Part shown: positions 15,606 through 41,019 of the stretch, piece after piece | Numbering within the stretch: position 1 is the first letter of the stretch | Layout of the letters: each line of letters starts with the position of its first letter | Source: a virus | DNA length: 41,019 nt | Virus record (IMG/VR): IMGVR_UViG_3300025586_000014 | Coordinates: 1-41,019 of that record | Reading direction: 5' to 3' (one strand) | Position numbers and translations under genes: made by a program | The notes under the pieces: generated by a model | Seen by the model: the letters and a program-made list of their open reading frames with translations, nothing else | Database searches by the model: none | What the model was told of the DNA's origin: nothing

Positions 15606-15689
15606 ATTTCTACTTTTTTAAAAGTCCGATAAGCAATTTCTTAAAATCATAAGTATCACATTTACAATAATATGCTTTCATACAAAACG

Positions 15690-15883
15690 TGGGAGGGTTT
15701 TTATGCCCCCCAACGAAACTATTAAAATATAATATTTATATATTCAAATAAATACTGAACTCTTATATTGAGCTCAAGTTCTTTTTGTAATCGTATAAAA
15801 AGAATGAGCTAGATGCGTTGACGCGCTGTCTAGCTCAGTGAATTAAGAGCTTTAATCTCTTAATAGGATGATAATCTTATCAT
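15690..15883. other. Structured non-coding region (hairpin array), candidate origin or leader RNA
   Basis: The 424-bp gap 15552-15975 holds no gene. It contains five inverted repeats: (A) TGGGAGGG/CCCCCCA at 15690-15712; (B) AGCTCA + TTCTTTTT with AAAAAGAA + TGAGCT at 15771-15810; (C) TGAGCTAGA with TCTAGCTCA at 15805-15837, with inner GCG/CGC; (D) TTAAGAG/CTCTTAA at 15843-15863; (E) ATGATAA/TTATCAT at 15868-15883. B and C compete for the same TGAGCT. The region directly precedes the primase-helicase gene. An origin of replication or a regulatory leader RNA would both fit; the sequence does not decide. Confidence 0.5.
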
Positions 15884-15975
15884 ATATGATATTTATTGTA
15901 TTAGTCAAAGATTGTTTTGCACTATTTGAGTATTGGTTCTTAGTTATTTAACAGCTAATTAAAATAAGGATTAAT

Positions 15976-17613
15976 ATGAATTTTGAAGATAATCTACGAA
16001 GCTTTATGGCTTCTAAAGGCTTGCCTCTAAATACAAATGAACTTTATATGGATGGTCATATACATAGGTATTCTGCTCATTCTAATGGCTCTAAAGACGA
16101 ATATTATACTTGTCAAATTATAGAAGGAAATCATTTTAGATGTATGTTTGGTTCTTGGAAAGGAACCCAACTAAGACACTTTTGGAACTCATGTTCTCCA
16201 GGTGAAATAACTAATTATGACGAAAAAATAGAAATAATAAACAAAAAATATATAGAAGAAGATGAAAAATTAGAAAAGGAACAAAAAGCATCCTTTATAA
16301 AAGAATGGAATTCTCTAGATCCATGCTTAGAACATCCATATTTAATTAAAAAGAAAATATCTCCTAAAGATTTAAAACAAAGCGGATCGATTCTTTATAT
16401 ACCATTATATAACTTAAATAACGAATTATCTACATGTATTAAAATTGATTCTACTGGGAAAAAGAAGTATTTCTATGGAATCAAAGCAAAATTAATGCAC
16501 CATTCTTTTGGTAATATATCAGAAGACAAGGAAATTGTTTTTTGTGAAGGTTATGCAACAGGAAGGACTATATACGAACTAACAGGAAAGTTTGTAGTTT
16601 CATGTGGAAGTTCATCAAGCATTTGTCCAATTGCTCAATTATTTAAGATTAAATATCCAAATAAAAAGTTAAGTGTAGCAATAGATTATGATAACGCAGG
16701 ATTAGCTGTAAAAGAGGACTGGCTAAAATGGTTCTCTAATACCATATATATGCCTGAAACTATAGATTATGATTTTAATGATGTTTTATGTAATGAAGGT
16801 CCAGAAAAAGTAAAAGAAGCCTTTGTTACAAAATACTTAATACCATTAAACATAAAAGAAATAATGGAAGAAGAAGTCACGGAAGAAAAACAACTGAATT
16901 CCATATTACATGAAGGCACATTTAACATAATATTTGGTTCGGGTGGAGTTGGAAAATCTAGAGTAGCTCTAGAGATGGCTTTTTGTTTGTGTTCTGGAGA
17001 ACAATTTCTTTATTTCGAAACATTTGGAAAGCATAGAATTCTTTATATAGATGGTGAAATGACAGGTGCTGAAATTCAAGATAGAATAAAAGACATAATA
17101 GTAAGACATGATGAATCTGATTTTGAAAGTGATAATTTTAGAATAATCAAAGCCATGGATATATTAAATCAAACTGGTGAAGACATAGATTTATTCCAGG
17201 AAGAACATAGAAGTCGATTTGATCAAGCTATAGAACAATCTGATGTAATATTCTTAGATAACCTTGGAAGCTTAACAATGCCACCAGAAGGAGACAGCTT
17301 CAAGTTAGATAAGCTTCAATGGATTAAAATGTTTAATTGGATTAAAGAATGGCGAGCAAAAGGGAAAACGTTTGTTCTTCTAATGCATGCTAACAAAAGT
17401 GGATCACTAGAAGGTGTTGGTAAAATCAGAAACGATGCTGATTTAGTCTTAGAATTAAAAAAACCAATAGACATTGATACGTCAGCTTTAATCCATTTTG
17501 AAGTCTTCTATGATAAAGCCAGAAAGATACCAGTCTATAAACAACAATCATTCTCAGCTAAAATAATGCCTGAAAGAAAACAATACTTTGGCTGGTTTAG
17601 TACCAAAATTTGA
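15976..17613 (+). CDS. TOPRIM primase / RecA-like helicase fusion
   Basis: 545 residues. The N-terminal part (about 1-75) resembles the zinc-less leader of RepA/VapE-type proteins. The TOPRIM domain spans about 185-260 with EGYATG (Glu191) and AIDYDNAG (Asp237, Asp239). A RecA/RepA-like ATPase follows with Walker A GSGGVGKS (321-328), IDGEMTG (358-364), Walker B VIFLDN (424-429) and MHANKSG (470-476). This combination primes synthesis and unwinds DNA at the phage origin. There is no zinc finger, which may be supplied by the CHC2 protein at 11708-12202. The hairpin array at 15690-15883 lies just upstream, and a GC-rich RNA-like element lies downstream. AAGGAT precedes the ATG. Confidence 0.85.
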   Translation: MNFEDNLRSFMASKGLPLNTNELYMDGHIHRYSAHSNGSKDEYYTCQIIEGNHFRCMFGSWKGTQLRHFWNSCSPGEITNYDEKIEIINKKYIEEDEKLEKEQKASFIKEWNSLDPCLEHPYLIKKKISPKDLKQSGSILYIPLYNLNNELSTCIKIDSTGKKKYFYGIKAKLMHHSFGNISEDKEIVFCEGYATGRTIYELTGKFVVSCGSSSSICPIAQLFKIKYPNKKLSVAIDYDNAGLAVKEDWLKWFSNTIYMPETIDYDFNDVLCNEGPEKVKEAFVTKYLIPLNIKEIMEEEVTEEKQLNSILHEGTFNIIFGSGGVGKSRVALEMAFCLCSGEQFLYFETFGKHRILYIDGEMTGAEIQDRIKDIIVRHDESDFESDNFRIIKAMDILNQTGEDIDLFQEEHRSRFDQAIEQSDVIFLDNLGSLTMPPEGDSFKLDKLQWIKMFNWIKEWRAKGKTFVLLMHANKSGSLEGVGKIRNDADLVLELKKPIDIDTSALIHFEVFYDKARKIPVYKQQSFSAKIMPERKQYFGWFSTKI

Positions 17614-17651
17614 GCGGAATAAAAGGATTACCATTAGATGAAATTACATTC

Positions 17652-17782
17652 AAAAACCTTGCTTGCCAACAGTCCGCATTGTATGCCGGTACAAGGTGTA
17701 CTTCTGTTACGGGCAGGACACGACGCAACGGTCGAGTTGCATCGCTCGTGCTTACGGCAAGGTCCATGCCGAGCCGCTGCCC
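17652..17782 (-). ncRNA. GC-rich structured RNA candidate with own promoter
   Basis: The interval 17701-17820 has 69 G+C in 120 bases, against a clearly AT-rich genome. It folds as a three-way junction: outer stem GGGCAG (17711-17716)/CTGCCC (17777-17782), extended by GGTGTACTTC (17695-17704)/GAAGTATACC (17783-17792); arm one CACGA + GCAAC with GTTGC + TCGTG (17719-17750); arm two CGGCA/TGCCG (17755-17771). On the minus strand a near-consensus promoter (17785-17813) leads into it. ACCTTG/CAAGGT (17697-17692/17661-17656) followed by five T could end it. No frame across it looks like a protein. The strand is inferred from the promoter; the outer 10-bp stem has a G-T wobble that would suit a plus-strand transcript. 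Confidence 0.45.
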
Positions 17783-17784
17783 GA

Positions 17785-17813
17785 AGTATACCGCCAATAC
17801 ACGCTGGTGTCAA
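17785..17813 (-). promoter_or_regulatory. Near-consensus sigma70 promoter inside GC-rich island
   Basis: On the minus strand TTGACA (17808-17813), exactly 17 bp, TATACT (17785-17790): 11 of 12 consensus bases. It points into the GC-rich structured element and away from the next plus-strand gene. No minus-strand protein gene lies within reach, so an RNA product is the natural reading. Confidence 0.55.
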
Positions 17814-17852
17814 GACAATTCTTCTAAATAATATATAATAAAGGATAAGAGT

Positions 17853-18281
17853 ATGAATATTAAAGACTTAAGAAGAAACATTCTTAAAGAGAAAAAAGAG
17901 CTGAACTTCTTATGGTATAAAAAAGATAACCCTCAACTTTTACTTATGGACTTAAGAGATCGGAAGACTTTAAAAGAAGAGCTTGAATGGAAACACTATA
18001 ATAAACAAAAGCTTGAAGGTGGAGAGTTCTTTAAGATACTAAGGCTATCTATGTCTTTTGTGGATAGAAAGGTATCTACACGTAAAACTTTAAGTATATT
18101 TCCATATTATAAGAGAGGAACTAAGGGATACTTACTGGACACAAGTGTTATAACTATTCTCCCTAAAGAAATACAACTTCTAGTAAAAAAAAGCATGGAA
18201 GAAAAAGGAACTAATATAATATTATTTAATGAGACAATAATAACTCTACCACCTGAATATTTCAGGATATTAAAACGATAG
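17853..18281 (+). CDS. Unknown protein downstream of the primase-helicase
   Basis: 142 residues, very rich in Lys and Leu (MNIKDLRRNILKEKKELNFL). Two regions are visible: a charged helical N-terminus to about residue 55 and a beta-rich C-terminus (VSTRKTLSIFPYYKRG, ITILPKEIQLLVKK). No catalytic motif. It starts 50 bases after the GC-rich island and runs tightly into the next gene (7 bases), so the three genes 17853-18901 form one operon. A replication accessory role is inferred from context only. Confidence 0.6.
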   Translation: MNIKDLRRNILKEKKELNFLWYKKDNPQLLLMDLRDRKTLKEELEWKHYNKQKLEGGEFFKILRLSMSFVDRKVSTRKTLSIFPYYKRGTKGYLLDTSVITILPKEIQLLVKKSMEEKGTNIILFNETIITLPPEYFRILKR

Positions 18282-29758: not shown

Positions 29759-29938
29759 ATGACAAAAATGTATAAACGCACTACCATTTGGTTACCTATT
29801 GTTATACACACTCAAGCAAAGATGATGGCTTTATTAACAGACTCATCATTTTCTGACTTGCTACGTATAGCTTTGTTAAAAGAAATTAAATATTTAAAGG
29901 CACAGAATGATAAAAAAAACACTTACAAGATTAAATGA
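29759..29938 (+). CDS. Ribbon-helix-helix-like small regulator
   Basis: 59 residues from ATG 29759 (ATG 29768 is also possible; the TTG at 29723 lies inside the promoter). The core YKRTTIWLPIVIHTQAKMMA, then SFSDLLRIALLKEIKYL, has the strand-helix-helix plan of ribbon-helix-helix proteins (antitoxins and small repressors): a beta strand R-T-T-I-W, then two helices. The end overlaps the start of the next gene by 32 bases. A regulator or antitoxin-like role in the two-gene cassette is plausible. No ordinary Shine-Dalgarno site lies before it. Confidence 0.5.
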   Translation: MTKMYKRTTIWLPIVIHTQAKMMALLTDSSFSDLLRIALLKEIKYLKAQNDKKNTYKIK

Positions 29939-30671
29939 GTTATTCCACGTTGTGAATGATAAGAAAATTATAGGCCCTGCTCCTATGATGACTGGTGATT
30001 GCTCAAGCTTAATAGGTGATTGCTCAGAATTAAGTGGTAATTGCTCAAACTTATGGGGTAATTGCTCAAGCTTAATAGGTGATTGCTCAGAATTAAATGG
30101 TGATTGCTCAGAATTAAGGGGTGATTGCTCAAGCTTATTTGGGAATTGCTCAAACTTATGGGGTAATTGCTCAAGCTTAAGAGGTCATTGCTCAGAATTA
30201 AGGGGTGATTGCTCAAGCCTAAAGGGTGATTGCTCAAGCTTATTTGGGAATTGCTCAAGCTTATTTGGGAATTGCTCAAACTTAATAGGTGATTGCTCAG
30301 AATTAAATGGTGATTGCTCAAGCTTAATAGGTGATTGCTCAAGCTTAAGAGGTCATTGCTCAAGCTTAATAGGTGATTGCTCAAGCTTAATAGGTGATTG
30401 CTCAAGCTTAATAGGTGATTGCTCAAGCTTAAGAGGTCATTGCTCAGAATTAAGTGGTAATTGCTCAAGCCTAAGGGGTGATTGCTCAAACTTAATAGGT
30501 GATTGCTCAAGCTTAAGAGGTCATTGCTCAGAATTAAGTGGTAATTGCTCAAGCTTAAGAGGTCATTGCTCAAGCTTAATAGGTGATCTAGACGAGGCAA
30601 ACATTTCTAATGCCGAGAGACTCAATGGCATTGATATTAAAGACTTAATTAAGGATGAGGACACGATTTAA
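29907..30671 (+). CDS. Cys-heptapeptide repeat protein
   Basis: 254 residues. An N-terminal part of 29 residues (MIKKTLTRLNELFHVVNDKK) is followed by 28 heptads of the type G-[DNH]-C-S-[SEN]-L-x (residues 30-225) and a short acidic tail (NAERLNGIDIKDLIKDEDTI). Every heptad has Cys at position 3 and Leu at position 6, which suggests a regular beta-solenoid with a ladder of 28 Cys and an internal Leu stack. Similar 7-residue 'G.vSgL' repeats occur in other phages, but I know of no function. The frame overlaps the small RHH-like gene. Confidence 0.6.
   Translation: MIKKTLTRLNELFHVVNDKKIIGPAPMMTGDCSSLIGDCSELSGNCSNLWGNCSSLIGDCSELNGDCSELRGDCSSLFGNCSNLWGNCSSLRGHCSELRGDCSSLKGDCSSLFGNCSSLFGNCSNLIGDCSELNGDCSSLIGDCSSLRGHCSSLIGDCSSLIGDCSSLIGDCSSLRGHCSELSGNCSSLRGDCSNLIGDCSSLRGHCSELSGNCSSLRGHCSSLIGDLDEANISNAERLNGIDIKDLIKDEDTI
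29994..30581 (+). repeat. 28 tandem copies of a 21-bp unit
   Basis: Tandem units of 21 bp (for example GGTGATTGCTCAAGCTTAAT, then one more base) from 29994 to 30581 encode the 28 heptapeptides. Variants are only at a few codon positions, and long runs are identical (30361-30440). Copy number is likely to vary by slippage, and short reads could collapse it. The complementary strand is also free of stops over 29983-30600, a by-product of the unit. Confidence 0.9.
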
Positions 30672-31029: not shown

Positions 31030-34000
31030 TTATTGTTTATTTGGGGAATTCAAATCATTTTTAGAGACTGATTCTTGAGATTCTTTTCCTGCTATAAATC
31101 CAGTTTTATATAAATATCTAATTAATTGATCTGCTACTTGATTTGTCTCTTTTGATCCAGCGTTACGTTTCATTTTAAGCATAAAATTAATAGTTTTATC
31201 AATAGCTTCTGGATTTGTAATAAGTTGAGCTAACTTTCTTTTAGCTGCTGTTTTTACAAGTATTTTAAATAATGTCTTACCTCCAAAAATAGCCGCTTTT
31301 TTAGGGTTAAGAAGACTTAATAATCCATTCATTAGATTAACAAATTCGTTCATATGTTCTTTTTGCACTTGAGTATTCGATTGGTTAACAAAATAAGTAA
31401 ATTTCTCTTTTACGTTTTTTGCTAAGTCCGCAAGCTTTTCTACTTTTGCAAATTGGGTTGGTGTTAATAGTTCTTTTAATAAGTTCCTTGAATTTTCTGA
31501 TCTCATTAACTTGTTAATTGCATTTATAGATAAAGCATTTTGAAATATTTGTTGCGCTTTAAGCTGCTTGAGACCGTTAAATATTCTTACTCCATTTTTT
31601 GAATCTCCAAATAAGTTTTTAACAGTTCTAATTCCACTAACATTACTCATTTCATTTAATAAAGCTCTATTTGTATCTTCTGATAACATTGTTGATAAAA
31701 GACTTTTATTTAACTTATTTTGGTCTGATCTTATACCTTTTAACCTAGATGTTAATTCCTTAGATACTTCAGCTAAACTTGTTTGTTGTTCTTTTAATAA
31801 ATCAATGTCTTCTTTCGTCTTTCTCTTGTTAGCTCTTAAATCTCTTTGTAGCGAAATCTTATCTTTTTTTAATTGTTCAATATCTTTTTTATTTTGACTG
31901 TCTGTAGCTTTTTGTAAAGCATCTTTTTGCGCTCTACCTGTTATATATTCAATTGGCAAATCAGCTTTAGACCTAAGCTCTCCAGCAACTTTCTCTAACT
32001 GAGAAGCAACTATTGGAGATAAGTTATTTCTATTTGTTTCTAAAAATCGTTCTATTACACCAAGTTGACTAGTAGCTACTTTTGCTTGTATCATTGGCAT
32101 ATTTTGTAAAGCAGAGAATTGAGCTTGCTCATTAGCCTTTAAGTATCTGTTAACATCAGCAATACGTTGTATCTTATGAAAAGTCATTTTACCTGGCTCT
32201 GGATGTCCTACTACCTTTTCAATAGAATGCCTTCTCAATGGATTTAGATCTTTTAATGGTATAAAGTTTTCTAAAGCTTGTATTGCATCTAAATTTAACG
32301 CTCTACCAGCTTCTTGAGGCGACATATACTTAACTCTACCATTTGTTCCTTGCTCTAAAGGTAAATATTTATTAATGAATGTTTCATTAGCAAATTCAAA
32401 TTGTTCTAACAATCCAGCTTGTTTTAACATTCTCTTTAATTGAGAATCAAATTTATGATATTCATTTTTAAGAATCTTTTCACCAGGAAGAGAACTTTTC
32501 CAGTTAATTACTTGGCCTAAAGTTTTTCTAGTCTCCCACATCTTTAATAATGTAGGTATTTTTACTCTACCTTCCATTTCATCCCAATTTGATATAAATT
32601 CACCAGGCGTAGTAAAGTTATTTCTTAATGATTTAAGTTTATCAAGAGCTTTTTCTTGTGTTGGAGATAAAAATTCTAGCTGCTCTATTCCCTTAACCAT
32701 GCGGTTTAGGTCAAACATCATTTTTTTAAATGGTACTTCTGGAACTACATATTTACTTTCTTCGGCTGCTTTATATAGATCACCGTATATTTTCTTTTTT
32801 TCTACTGACGCTTTCTTATAAGCTATGTCTCTTTGTTCTTTATACAGTTGTCCTGCTTCTGGGCTACCTATTCTTGGAGATATACTATCATAAATAGTTT
32901 CTGTTGCTGTTTGAGGAGCTTTTTCTGGTAAAGGAATACTATCTATAATTTCTGCTGCTTGTTGATCTTGTGGAGTTGATGCGTTTGCCTTTATTATATC
33001 ACTTGCATTGCTTATTACAGACCCTTCTACACCTACTTCTGTGCTAGGTAGGCTTTGAGTCGATTCTTTTGTTATAGAGGCTATTTGAGGTTGTATTGAT
33101 GGTTTGGATGGAGTTTCTGTGTCTTCTAATATCTGTCTTGTAGCTTCTGACTGATCTTCTTGTTGTGTTTGTAATGCTTTTTGTTGAATATCTAGTGCTT
33201 GTGATTTCTCACCTATCGCTGCTTGCTCTTTAGCAACCTGTTCTTCTGCTGTAGATAAATCTTGTCCTTTAACTTCTAATTCATTAGCAAGAAAGTTTTC
33301 TGCTTCATCTACTATTGAGTTATCAATTGCTACTATATTTAATAATGAATCACCAAATTCTTTATCTTGCCCAGCAATAAAATCTTTCATTATATTTTTT
33401 GTAGCAACGTTTTTTTGCATAATTCCTAATGCTATATCAGTTGCTGTTCCTTTAGATGCTGTTGCAAATGTTGGAACTATACCTGTTTCTGATACATTTT
33501 TTGCATTTTTTAATAAACTTTCTGTAGTTTTTTCTAATACATATATACCAGCTTTATCAAGCACTGATGGTATTACATTATAACCTAATGGAATACCTAT
33601 TAAATCTGCTACTGGCTCTGGCACTCCCTTGCTTGTTAATCCCTTTGAAATTGCTGCTGCTGCTACAGGTTTAGCTGTTATCCCAAAAGCTATGTTAGCT
33701 CCTCTTACATAGGCTTCTTTTTGAGCCAGTCTTCTAGCTCCCATTTTAGCTGCTTGTAAAACTCCATGTCTAGCAACTTTTGTAGTTCCTAAAGAAGCTA
33801 CATCAGATATTAAGAATGGTAAATCCATAATTGCAAATTCTGTAGCTTTCCAAGTAAGAGACTTTTGTATATTTTTAGGAATAGGTTTGCCTTTTTCAGC
33901 CATTTTTTGTGCATGAGATTTTCCAAAATAACTTGGGGCTACATCATATAAATTAGAACTTCCAATTAAAGAAGAATCCATACCTGTTATCACACCAGTT

Positions 34001-36037: not shown

Positions 36038-37960
36038 CTAATTACTTGTTATAGAGCCTGGACTACAATGTATTCTTATTGAACTAATAATAATAGGTTG
36101 TAATGCATTTTTTTTATAAATTCTTATATTTAAAAAGTTTGATTCTTGATCAACTATTGCTGTAATCCATTGTCTCTTTTTACTAGAATCAGGATCTGGT
36201 GAAAGTTGTACATCTTTTTTAAATGGTGTATCTTCTTCATCTTCAGAAAAATCAAGATATACAGAACCAGCTTTATTATTAATTAGAACTTCTATATGTG
36301 AAACAAAACAATTCATACCTTGATCTCTATAAGGATTAAAAGGTGCTAAAATTGCTTCAAAATTTATTATTTTAGTAATAAATCCACCGCTAGTATAAGC
36401 CGTATAATCAGTTGAATTTAAATTAACAGTTACAGCTGCTCCAGTTGCTGCTGAAACAGTTGCAATTTTCTCATTTATTTCTGTCATTCCTACGACATTT
36501 CTAATATAAACTTCATCTCCAATCTTAAATCCAGCTTCTGCTGCTATAACAGCACTAGCAGCTTGGTTAATAGCTGTTATTGGTGCTGCATAATCATCAA
36601 AATCAACATTTAATCTATAAACATATCCATCATCATCTCCAGCTAATGTCTTTTGAGTAGCTTCCCCTAAACCAATTTTATTCCAAATTTCATCTGTAGT
36701 ATCCCATCTAGCCCAATCTGCTTCTACTGTTTCATCTATTTGATTCCATGCTAAATTTTTACCACTATATGTTTCTCCAAAAACACTAAATCGTTGATCA
36801 TATATAGCCCATGTACTCTCTTCATAATTATATATTAATACTTGATCTTGAGTTTCATCAGCTAACGGTGATTCACTTTGTCTATATGCAAACATGAAGT
36901 GACCAGTATTTCGATCGAAACCACCATAAGTTAAGTCTATATACGGTTGTTCAATTTCATCAGTTGTAAAATTTGGTATTTTATTATCAAACCTTACTGA
37001 TTTTCTACCATCTGTAGTTATTAATCCTGTTGAACCTAAAGATTTAACTTCATTACTCCATCCAACTAGAGAGAACGTAGCATCTGTACCTATTACTGAT
37101 GGAATCTTTCTTGTTATATAAGGAATATTTGAATCACTAGTCTTTGTTAATGTCCAAACTGACTTTTGAAATTCCATTATTATTACATCGCCTAAAAAAT
37201 GAGTTCCCTTCATTAACTCATATGTACTTACAGTTTCAAGACCTGAACCAACAACATTAAATTGATCACCTTTTCCTGTAGTATCTCTTGTACCAGAATA
37301 TAGTACACTTTGATGGTATGAACTTCCACCTAATACAGGAACAAAGAAGTTTATTTTCCCATTAAACCAATGTACTTTAGTTGCTTTAGTTAAAGCTAAT
37401 GCGTTATATGGTTTATAATCTGTATTATCTCCAATAATAGCAGCATTATCTGTGAAACCTTTTACATGTGTACCATCATAAAAATAAACGGCTTTCATCC
37501 CTTTTCCAGTAAAAACAAATCTTTTTGTACCATTTGCTGCAAAATAAGTCGTTCCTGAAACATATTCATCTCTACTAGCAATAGCAAATTCACCTGTTGG
37601 ATCTAATGTTAATAAACGTGGACTAAAATGTATTTGAGTAAATATTTCTGTTACTGAATTATAACTATATAAATATTTAGTAGTTATTACAAGTAACTCT
37701 CTTGTTCCATCACCTGCTGGATCAATATTTTCAAAGATACCCATAACTCTAGTACCATCAGGAAAATCTGTTTTTTGATTCCCTAGTCTGTTTCCAAACT
37801 GCATGAATCCTTTTCTAGATTTCAACTCTTGTCTATAAATGAAACCGTTTCTTAAAACTTCAAATGCATCTGCTGGATCTAGAAAATTAACTCCCGAATT
37901 ATCTAAACCTGTAACAAAACCAGCATTTTGACCTTTTGAAATTATCTCATAAATATCCAT
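36038..37960 (-). CDS. gp10-like tail hub / DNA stabilisation protein
   Basis: 640 residues. The start (MDIYEIISKGQNAGFVTGLD ... RQELKSRKGFMQFGNRLG) and beta-propeller-like repeats (TRELLVITTKYLYSYNSVTE, TKRFVFTGKGMKAVYFYDG, GTHFLGDVIIMEFQKSVWTL) fit P22 gp10-type hubs that close the portal-adaptor channel. Residues about 473-530 form a second FCCH-like module (FKIGDEVYIRNVVGMTEINE ... YTAYTSGG), as in the virion protein at 40016. The C-terminal part is beta-rich. It lies downstream of the adaptor (38764) as in P22. Confidence 0.65.
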   Translation of the reverse strand: MDIYEIISKGQNAGFVTGLDNSGVNFLDPADAFEVLRNGFIYRQELKSRKGFMQFGNRLGNQKTDFPDGTRVMGIFENIDPAGDGTRELLVITTKYLYSYNSVTEIFTQIHFSPRLLTLDPTGEFAIASRDEYVSGTTYFAANGTKRFVFTGKGMKAVYFYDGTHVKGFTDNAAIIGDNTDYKPYNALALTKATKVHWFNGKINFFVPVLGGSSYHQSVLYSGTRDTTGKGDQFNVVGSGLETVSTYELMKGTHFLGDVIIMEFQKSVWTLTKTSDSNIPYITRKIPSVIGTDATFSLVGWSNEVKSLGSTGLITTDGRKSVRFDNKIPNFTTDEIEQPYIDLTYGGFDRNTGHFMFAYRQSESPLADETQDQVLIYNYEESTWAIYDQRFSVFGETYSGKNLAWNQIDETVEADWARWDTTDEIWNKIGLGEATQKTLAGDDDGYVYRLNVDFDDYAAPITAINQAASAVIAAEAGFKIGDEVYIRNVVGMTEINEKIATVSAATGAAVTVNLNSTDYTAYTSGGFITKIINFEAILAPFNPYRDQGMNCFVSHIEVLINNKAGSVYLDFSEDEEDTPFKKDVQLSPDPDSSKKRQWITAIVDQESNFLNIRIYKKNALQPIIISSIRIHCSPGSITSN

Positions 37961-40015: not shown

Positions 40016-40735
40016 TTAGCCTATGTCGCCTAAGTCTGTTACTTGTCCTAACTTAATACACTTAATCATTAGGATCTCACCATCAGCGCCAATACAGTCA
40101 GTTCCAATGGTTAACTTGTAAGTAATAGGGTCATAAGTAAATGCTGAGCTCAATGCTTGTGTGCGTGAGATACCCATTACACTACCACCTGACACATATG
40201 CCACATAAGCTGCGGAATCAATGTCTTCGCCTGTTATTGGATCTTGTAATGAAAAAGTATCCGCTGTAAGAACGGTAATGCTATATAGCTTATTTACCAA
40301 TTCGTCCATGCCACGAGCTGTAGTCATCTCAGGGCCAAGATCGGTAATACGTACTTGCCAACCTGTTGCCATTCCATGAGCTACTGCTGTAACTACGCAA
40401 GGATCTGCTTGGGTTATACCTGTGATTGCTGTTCTATAATCGGTTGTACCACCACTAGTATTAGCAGCAGTGAAACCGTTAGTTGTACCTTGAACATAGG
40501 TATAAGCTCCACCACCATCTGCGGTAGTTACTTGTTCTTTATAAGAATAAGCAGCAGTTGTTAGATCTTTAAACCACATAGAATGAGGAATGCCACCTGC
40601 TGTACTTGTCCAATCTGTTAAATTGTAAATTTCAACAATATCGGCGTCAAAGTTCATTGTTAATGTGTACTCTGCTCCACCTGATATTAGTTTAAATCCT
40701 TCGGTCATTGTGCGACCTTCGAATAAATCTGACAT
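40016..40735 (-). CDS. Virion-associated protein with E1-FCCH-like domain, allele B
   Basis: 239 residues, same start as allele A (MSDLFEGRTMTEGFKLISGG) and the same FCCH-like domain (TGITQADPCVVTAVAHGMAT ... SAAYVAYVSGG). Between residues 20 and 95 and at the C-terminus it differs from allele A (for example FDADIVEIYNLTDW, CIKLGQVTDLGDIG). In this branch the next gene is the 153-residue head-region gene, with no HNH gene. AAGGAGAT precedes the ATG. Either strain allele or tandem duplicate of 361-1086. Confidence 0.75.
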   Translation of the reverse strand: MSDLFEGRTMTEGFKLISGGAEYTLTMNFDADIVEIYNLTDWTSTAGGIPHSMWFKDLTTAAYSYKEQVTTADGGGAYTYVQGTTNGFTAANTSGGTTDYRTAITGITQADPCVVTAVAHGMATGWQVRITDLGPEMTTARGMDELVNKLYSITVLTADTFSLQDPITGEDIDSAAYVAYVSGGSVMGISRTQALSSAFTYDPITYKLTIGTDCIGADGEILMIKCIKLGQVTDLGDIG

Positions 40736-40753: not shown

Positions 40754-41019
40754 TTACGCTTTTGTTGATAGTAATGCGACGATGTGTGAATCATCTAGAA
40801 TTGCTGCATTGAAATAAGCAGTGAATCCCATTGATTGAAATCGGTTTAAATAATCGTTAAATCCTAATGGCTTCAAGATCATTTCTGTTGACACTTCATC
40901 AAGTCCTACATATCCATATGCGTTTGCACCAACAAAAGTGTTGTTGTAAACTGGAGCTGCATCTGTTGAAACTTTTACTAAAGTAGATGTAACCCATCTA
41001 GCTTCATCAGTTGAACCAA
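40754..41019 (-). CDS. Major capsid protein, 3' part, allele B (partial)
   Basis: The last 88 codons of a capsid gene identical in protein to 1105-2037 except for one residue (HIVALLSTKA instead of HIVTLLSTKA). The first 127 bases in coding direction (41019 to 40893) are identical to the other copy; the rest differs at about 17 of 139 bases. The gene runs off the window end. If the assembly loops back, the missing part continues at 1371. Confidence 0.85.
   Translation of the reverse strand, partial: GSTDEARWVTSTLVKVSTDAAPVYNNTFVGANAYGYVGLDEVSTEMILKPLGFNDYLNRFQSMGFTAYFNAAILDDSHIVALLSTKA
40893..41019. repeat. 127-bp exact direct repeat, copy 2 (window end)
   Basis: Identical to 1244-1370. It ends exactly with the window. 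See the copy 1 entry; joining the end to 1371 gives a circle of about 39,649 bp. Confidence 0.9.

Follow-up and report, generated by a model that had tools for sequence, protein, structure and literature searches.

A GC-rich, apparently non-coding island after a phage primase-helicase gene: a possible lineage-specific small RNA gene

What is a short GC-rich stretch doing in an AT-rich phage genome, in the gap that follows the gene for the primase-helicase? The window analyzed here is the 41,019-base IMG/VR record IMGVR_UViG_3300025586_000014, from an uncultured virus. It is a tailed-phage genome, encoding a P22-type portal, a terminase, ERF and YqaJ recombination proteins and a primase-helicase. 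The island is located in the 239-bp gap 17614–17852, with the primase-helicase ORF on its left and the ORF 17853–18281 on its right. A preliminary description of this DNA had proposed a phage small RNA gene, antisense to the primase-helicase and folding into a three-way junction. The locus is arranged as follows.

15976–17613, plus strand: primase-helicase ORF.
17657–17820, strand open: GC-rich, apparently non-coding island, judged by its composition, the lack of a consistent codon-position GC signal and a 2-nt deletion in a sibling contig.
17853–18281, plus strand: ORF of unknown function, with a ribosome site at about 17840.

The GC enrichment of the island exceeds chance. The GC content is 57.5% at 17700–17819 against 35% for the whole window, and the most GC-rich 120-mer of the window (17664–17783) contains 72 G+C. 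The gap as a whole, at 46% GC, stands at the top of all intergenic gaps of at least 100 bp in the gene list of this analysis. The island was thus correctly described as a GC-rich island in an AT-rich genome.

Such a composition could come from a protein-coding gene, small or decayed, whose codons are GC-rich. Several frames are open on both strands, and the plus-strand ORF 17638–17838 has the motif AAAGGA (17621–17626) ahead of its ATG; GC-rich DNA, however, is expected to carry open frames anyway. The sole homologue that we found, in the sibling contig IMGVR_UViG_3300025628_000018 (99.9% identity across 18.3 kb), has a 2-nt deletion in the middle of the island, while the adjoining primase gene is unchanged. 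Conservation of one reading frame, which the preliminary description had named as a point against an RNA gene, was not seen: the deletion shifts all frames through the island. It also removes the ATG at 17767 of an ORF on the minus strand, one that might be contained in the predicted RNA. There was no consistent GC bias by codon position in the island, and the frames tested had no relatives among Pfam, PHROG, phage, plasmid or genome proteins. Coding in the several frames of both strands is disfavored because of these three observations, and we regard a protein-coding gene here as quite unlikely.

The elements drawn in the preliminary description (an outer 10-bp stem, an inner stem and two hairpins) are all present, and they fold.

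17695–17704, strand open: left arm of the outer stem, GGTGTACTTC.
17783–17792, strand open: right arm of the outer stem, GAAGTATACC, which includes the −10 box of the minus-strand promoter.
17720–17745, minus strand: hairpin 2, 10 bp with the loop UCGACC, pairing better on the minus than on the plus strand.
17750–17774, minus strand: hairpin 1, the sole island site that differs in the sibling contig, where its stem is kept.

The arms of the outer stem (10 bp) are 90% complementary, and the inner stem is formed by CGGGCAG/CTGCCCG at 17710–17716 and 17777–17783. Against 1000 shuffles, the 105-nt core (17692–17796) gave z-scores of −2.87 on the plus and −2.70 on the minus strand, the 75-nt junction −2.15 and −3.10 (5 of the 1000 shuffles for the minus strand), and the whole 166-bp island −1.26 and −1.77. 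We also scanned the entire genome in 130-nt windows with a step of 65. On each strand 17681–17810 had the lowest raw folding energy of all windows; by z-score, however, it fell outside the 25 best, with just −2.3 (minus) and −1.8 (plus). The low folding energy of the island is mostly an effect of GC content, and its structure exceeds chance moderately, not extremely. Two stretches inside structural genes, 33476–33605 and 36466–36595, have a folding energy unusually low for their composition, with z-scores of −5.3 on the minus and −4.8 on the plus strand (30 shuffles each).

The strand had been left open in the preliminary description on account of a G–T wobble in the outer stem, and the preference is divided. 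The plus strand is the better one for the outer 10-bp stem, which pairs there with a G–U wobble. The junction favors the minus strand, as does hairpin 2, whose region (17717–17750) gave z-scores of −2.51 on the minus and −0.68 on the plus strand; one G–U pair of this hairpin on the minus strand is an A–C mismatch on the plus strand.

The minus strand carries signals that could begin and end a transcript.

17785–17813, minus strand: sigma-70-type promoter-like TTGACA-N17-TATACT, matching at 11 of 12 positions.
17652–17697, minus strand: terminator-like hairpin ACCUUG...CAAGGU followed by five U (−13.6 kcal/mol, z −1.56).
17652–17778, minus strand: predicted transcript of about 127 nt, with its start placed by normal −10 spacing and its end at the T run.

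The promoter-like sequence lies at exactly 17813–17785, as first described, with its −10 box at 17790–17785. Matches of at least 11/12 with a spacing of 16–18 number three in the window, compared to a mean of 3.05 in shuffles of it; shuffled islands contain a mean of 0.003. So good a match inside the GC-rich island is thus unlikely by chance (about 0.003). The hairpin and five T of the suggested terminator are in place by eye and by folding, but the ACCTTG...CAAGGT element (17697–17652) was missed by a scan for consensus terminators, and it would be a non-canonical terminator.

With the −10 box at the spacing normal for sigma-70, the transcript is expected to begin at about 17777–17779. On the minus strand the closing stem takes 17792–17777 as its 5′ arm, and the −10 box falls within the arm of the outer stem. 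An RNA from this promoter could not form the three-way junction, because the predicted start leaves out nearly all of the 5′ arm. The promoter and the junction, combined by the preliminary description in one RNA, are therefore mutually exclusive. Folded from 17779, the RNA consists of two hairpins and the terminator-like hairpin ending in five U, with a z-score of −1.30; the predicted-start RNA folds unremarkably, as expected by chance. The whole junction can form only in a minus-strand RNA that begins further to the right, in mRNA that reads through on the plus strand, or in single-stranded DNA. Nor would the RNA be antisense to the primase-helicase: it is predicted to end at 17652 and the primase ORF ends at 17613, such that only transcription continuing beyond the T run would overlap that ORF. 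Should the rightward operon yield read-through mRNA, the predicted RNA would be complementary to it.

The second of these settings for the junction, plus-strand read-through RNA, amounts to an explanation of its own, in which an intercistronic mRNA element stabilizes, processes or attenuates the message ahead of the next gene. The flanking genes are both on the plus strand, and the entire junction with its outer stem is possible in plus-strand RNA by way of the G–U wobble (core z −2.87). Hairpin 2, however, is worse on this strand (z −0.68 compared to −2.51), and the minus-strand promoter is left without explanation. We consider such an element rather unlikely.

The overlap with the sibling contig has 20 differing columns, five of them clustered in hairpin 1 (A17759G, G17762C, C17764T and deletion of 17766–17767), and the primase gene is identical. 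The stem of hairpin 1 is clean in both contigs, CGGCA/TGCCG in the window and CGGCGA/TCGCCG in the sibling, which retains it by way of an A–T to G–C change, accompanied by changes in the loop. We compared these changes with randomly drawn sets, matched in number and kind and placed in the same nine bases of hairpin 1. The random changes kept or improved the original folding energy in 24% (plus) and 36% (minus) of cases, and attained the folding energy of the sibling in 7% (plus) and 10% (minus). The kept stem is weak support for the structure, given a chance occurrence of 7–36% and a single, near-identical homologue; one template-switch event in the hairpin could also be the source of the changes. 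The sibling has in addition two extra A in the A run at 17891, near the start of the ORF 17853–18281, which shift its frame and represent either a strain difference or a sequencing error. One may go further and imagine a fast-turnover minus-strand RNA of about 127 nt, whose hairpin 1 diversifies between near-identical strains with retention of the stem, while its loop sets the recognition of sibling replicons. This is likened to antisense-RNA immunity and plasmid-incompatibility systems, and we think it very improbable.

How widely does the island occur? No match to a known RNA family had been suggested for it, and none emerged: neither Rfam, at gathering or loose thresholds, nor ARAGORN gave a match in the island, and it was not identifiable as a known Rfam family, tRNA or tmRNA. 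Comparison by blastn with phages, plasmids and E. coli returned short chance matches only, most of them to the AT-rich flank; E. coli gave no match at all. Exact patterns for the left arm, hairpin 2 and the right arm, and a gapped stem pattern, retrieved only the sibling contig from IMG/VR. A covariance model (R1) built from the two known copies was run on 1.1 Mb comprising the window and related phage DNA, and matched the window and the sibling, nothing else. The records of relatives that we searched were drawn from terminase and capsid scans (80 loci each); apart from the sibling, the island is absent from them. The near-identical contigs L005, L007 and G055 stop short of the island position. 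One record among those searched, G065, has a distant primase (28% identity, E 8e-58), and there the next ORF overlaps the end of the primase; gap and island are both absent. As far as the phage, plasmid, E. coli and IMG/VR collections searched extend, the island appears to be confined to a narrow lineage.

Possible analogues and other classes of element were set aside. The strongest GC island in related phages, L096 9561–9680, overlaps an Ala-rich ORF of 86 aa, and a GC peak that precedes the G065 primase folds no better than expected by chance (z 0.53 and −0.15). A group I intron was dismissed by eye and had no Rfam intron match. Dismissed by eye as well were an integron attC site, whose core motifs are absent, and a DGR template repeat, as no reverse transcriptase was noticed among the ORFs.

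The strong contrast in composition and the restriction to this lineage would suit an inert foreign insert: an imperfect, GC-rich palindrome, whether MITE- or REP-like or a piece of foreign DNA, which landed between genes and is functionless for the phage. The ends of the island, 17659–17672 and 17806–17817, are able to pair imperfectly. Yet the island is present in a single copy in the window record, the four IMG/VR patterns yielded no copy from another lineage, the phage, plasmid and E. coli records contained none, and a target-site repeat of at least 5 bp is absent. Of the marks of a MITE- or REP-like element (several copies, terminal inverted repeats and target-site duplication), the first and the last were thus not found in the window, by the IMG/VR patterns or in the phage, plasmid and E. 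coli records. An insert of this kind is, in our estimation, somewhat improbable.

Several features of these records lie outside the island. The segment 1244–1370 is an exact 127-bp repeat of 40893–41019, one copy being internal and the other at the contig end, and the sibling contig starts exactly at 1244. The repeat looks like an assembly-graph junction, and positions 1–1243 may therefore correspond, as a strain variant, to the sequence ahead of the contig end. Paralogous MSDLFEG ORFs are found at 361–1086 and 40016–40735. The ORF 29907–30671 is built from the short repeat NCSSLxGD/H, about 21 bp per unit, and the arrangement of these repeats differs in the near-identical contig G055, with many shifted alignments.

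The position of the island next to the primase-helicase gene also raises the possibility of a DNA element in replication, a hairpin on single-stranded DNA that serves as a primosome or primase loading site or as part of an origin. Folded as DNA, 17652–17820 gave a z-score of −2.03 (5 of 200 shuffles). The gap upstream of the primase, by contrast, is much better structured, and in G065, with its distantly related primase, no island follows the primase gene; a role of the island in replication is of low probability. The upstream gap, 15660–15975, lies between the YqaJ exonuclease and the primase-helicase. It is AT-rich, folds with a z-score of −4.87 (0 of 100 shuffles), is among the best of the whole window by z-score in the 130-nt scan, and consists of near-perfect hairpins in series, for example GAGCTAGATGCGTTGACGCGCTGTCTAGCTC and TTAAGAGC-TTTAAT-CTCTTAA. 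It has no Rfam family at cut-off. On folding, this gap is a stronger candidate than the island, be it for an origin of replication or for a regulatory leader ahead of the primase. In G065, the distant primase is preceded by a non-coding gap (L203 8480–8760) that has repeated CGAACTCACTAA motifs and hairpins, with a z-score of −2.73 on one strand; the motifs are possible origin iterons.

The best single account of the island is a minus-strand gene for a lineage-specific phage small RNA, because it explains together the GC enrichment, the non-coding character, the promoter and the T run. We hold this reading tentatively, with a probability of roughly 0.4. The small RNA gene first proposed thereby survives in part: the island is moderately structured, apparently non-coding and provided with a good candidate promoter on the minus strand, but its RNA would not be antisense to the primase-helicase and the drawn junction is incompatible with the promoter. 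We infer the transcription, termination, length and function of this RNA alike from the DNA sequence. From a start at about 17778, the sigma-70 RNA polymerase of the host would proceed leftward through the two GC-rich hairpins and stop at the terminator-like hairpin with its five U, at 17652. The product would be a stable RNA of about 127 nt from the gap after the primase-helicase gene, and over its full length it would be complementary to the rightward operon mRNA between the two genes. It might act in cis on this mRNA, by duplex formation, RNase III cutting or collision of polymerases, and so uncouple the expression of the primase from that of the downstream genes. Alternatively, it might act in trans on another RNA; action in cis is the more economical guess.

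RNA I of ColE1 is about 110–130 nt long, has three hairpins and a near-consensus promoter, and lies in antisense orientation in a replication region. The island RNA would be alike in these features, but there is no RNA II-like primer here and the sequences are unrelated; this is a resemblance only. The sar RNA of phage P22 arises, like the RNA predicted here, from an intercistronic gap inside an operon. It covers the start of its target gene, whereas the predicted RNA starts at 17778, upstream of the ribosome site at about 17840, which it would not cover. Sar is an antisense RNA (PMC12197685). The OOP RNA of lambda, from the promoter pO of lambdoid phages, is likewise a small RNA directed against a rightward operon, in the replication region and with its own promoter (PMC12197685); OOP is antisense to cII, whereas the predicted RNA overlaps no credible gene on the opposite strand, and the sequences are unrelated. 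The GC-rich intergenic RNAs of 'Cand. Pelagibacter ubique' share with the island a GC-enriched intergenic region in an AT-rich genome (PMC2704228). Many of those regions, however, are known, widely conserved RNAs, whereas the island is without an independent homologue or an Rfam match.

GC-rich DNA in an AT-rich genome folds well regardless of its nature, and the island is to be read with this caution. In 'Cand. P. ubique', whose genome is AT-rich, intergenic regions with raised GC are enriched for structured RNAs (PMC2704228), and antisense RNAs are known to be encoded next to phage replication genes, OOP being an example (PMC12197685). Thus, even if true, the small RNA proposed here would belong to a known kind. 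If the island is transcribed, it would add another phage small RNA without relatives, discovered by base composition alone, and the window and its sibling would be two near-identical phage genomes that differ notably in one RNA hairpin.
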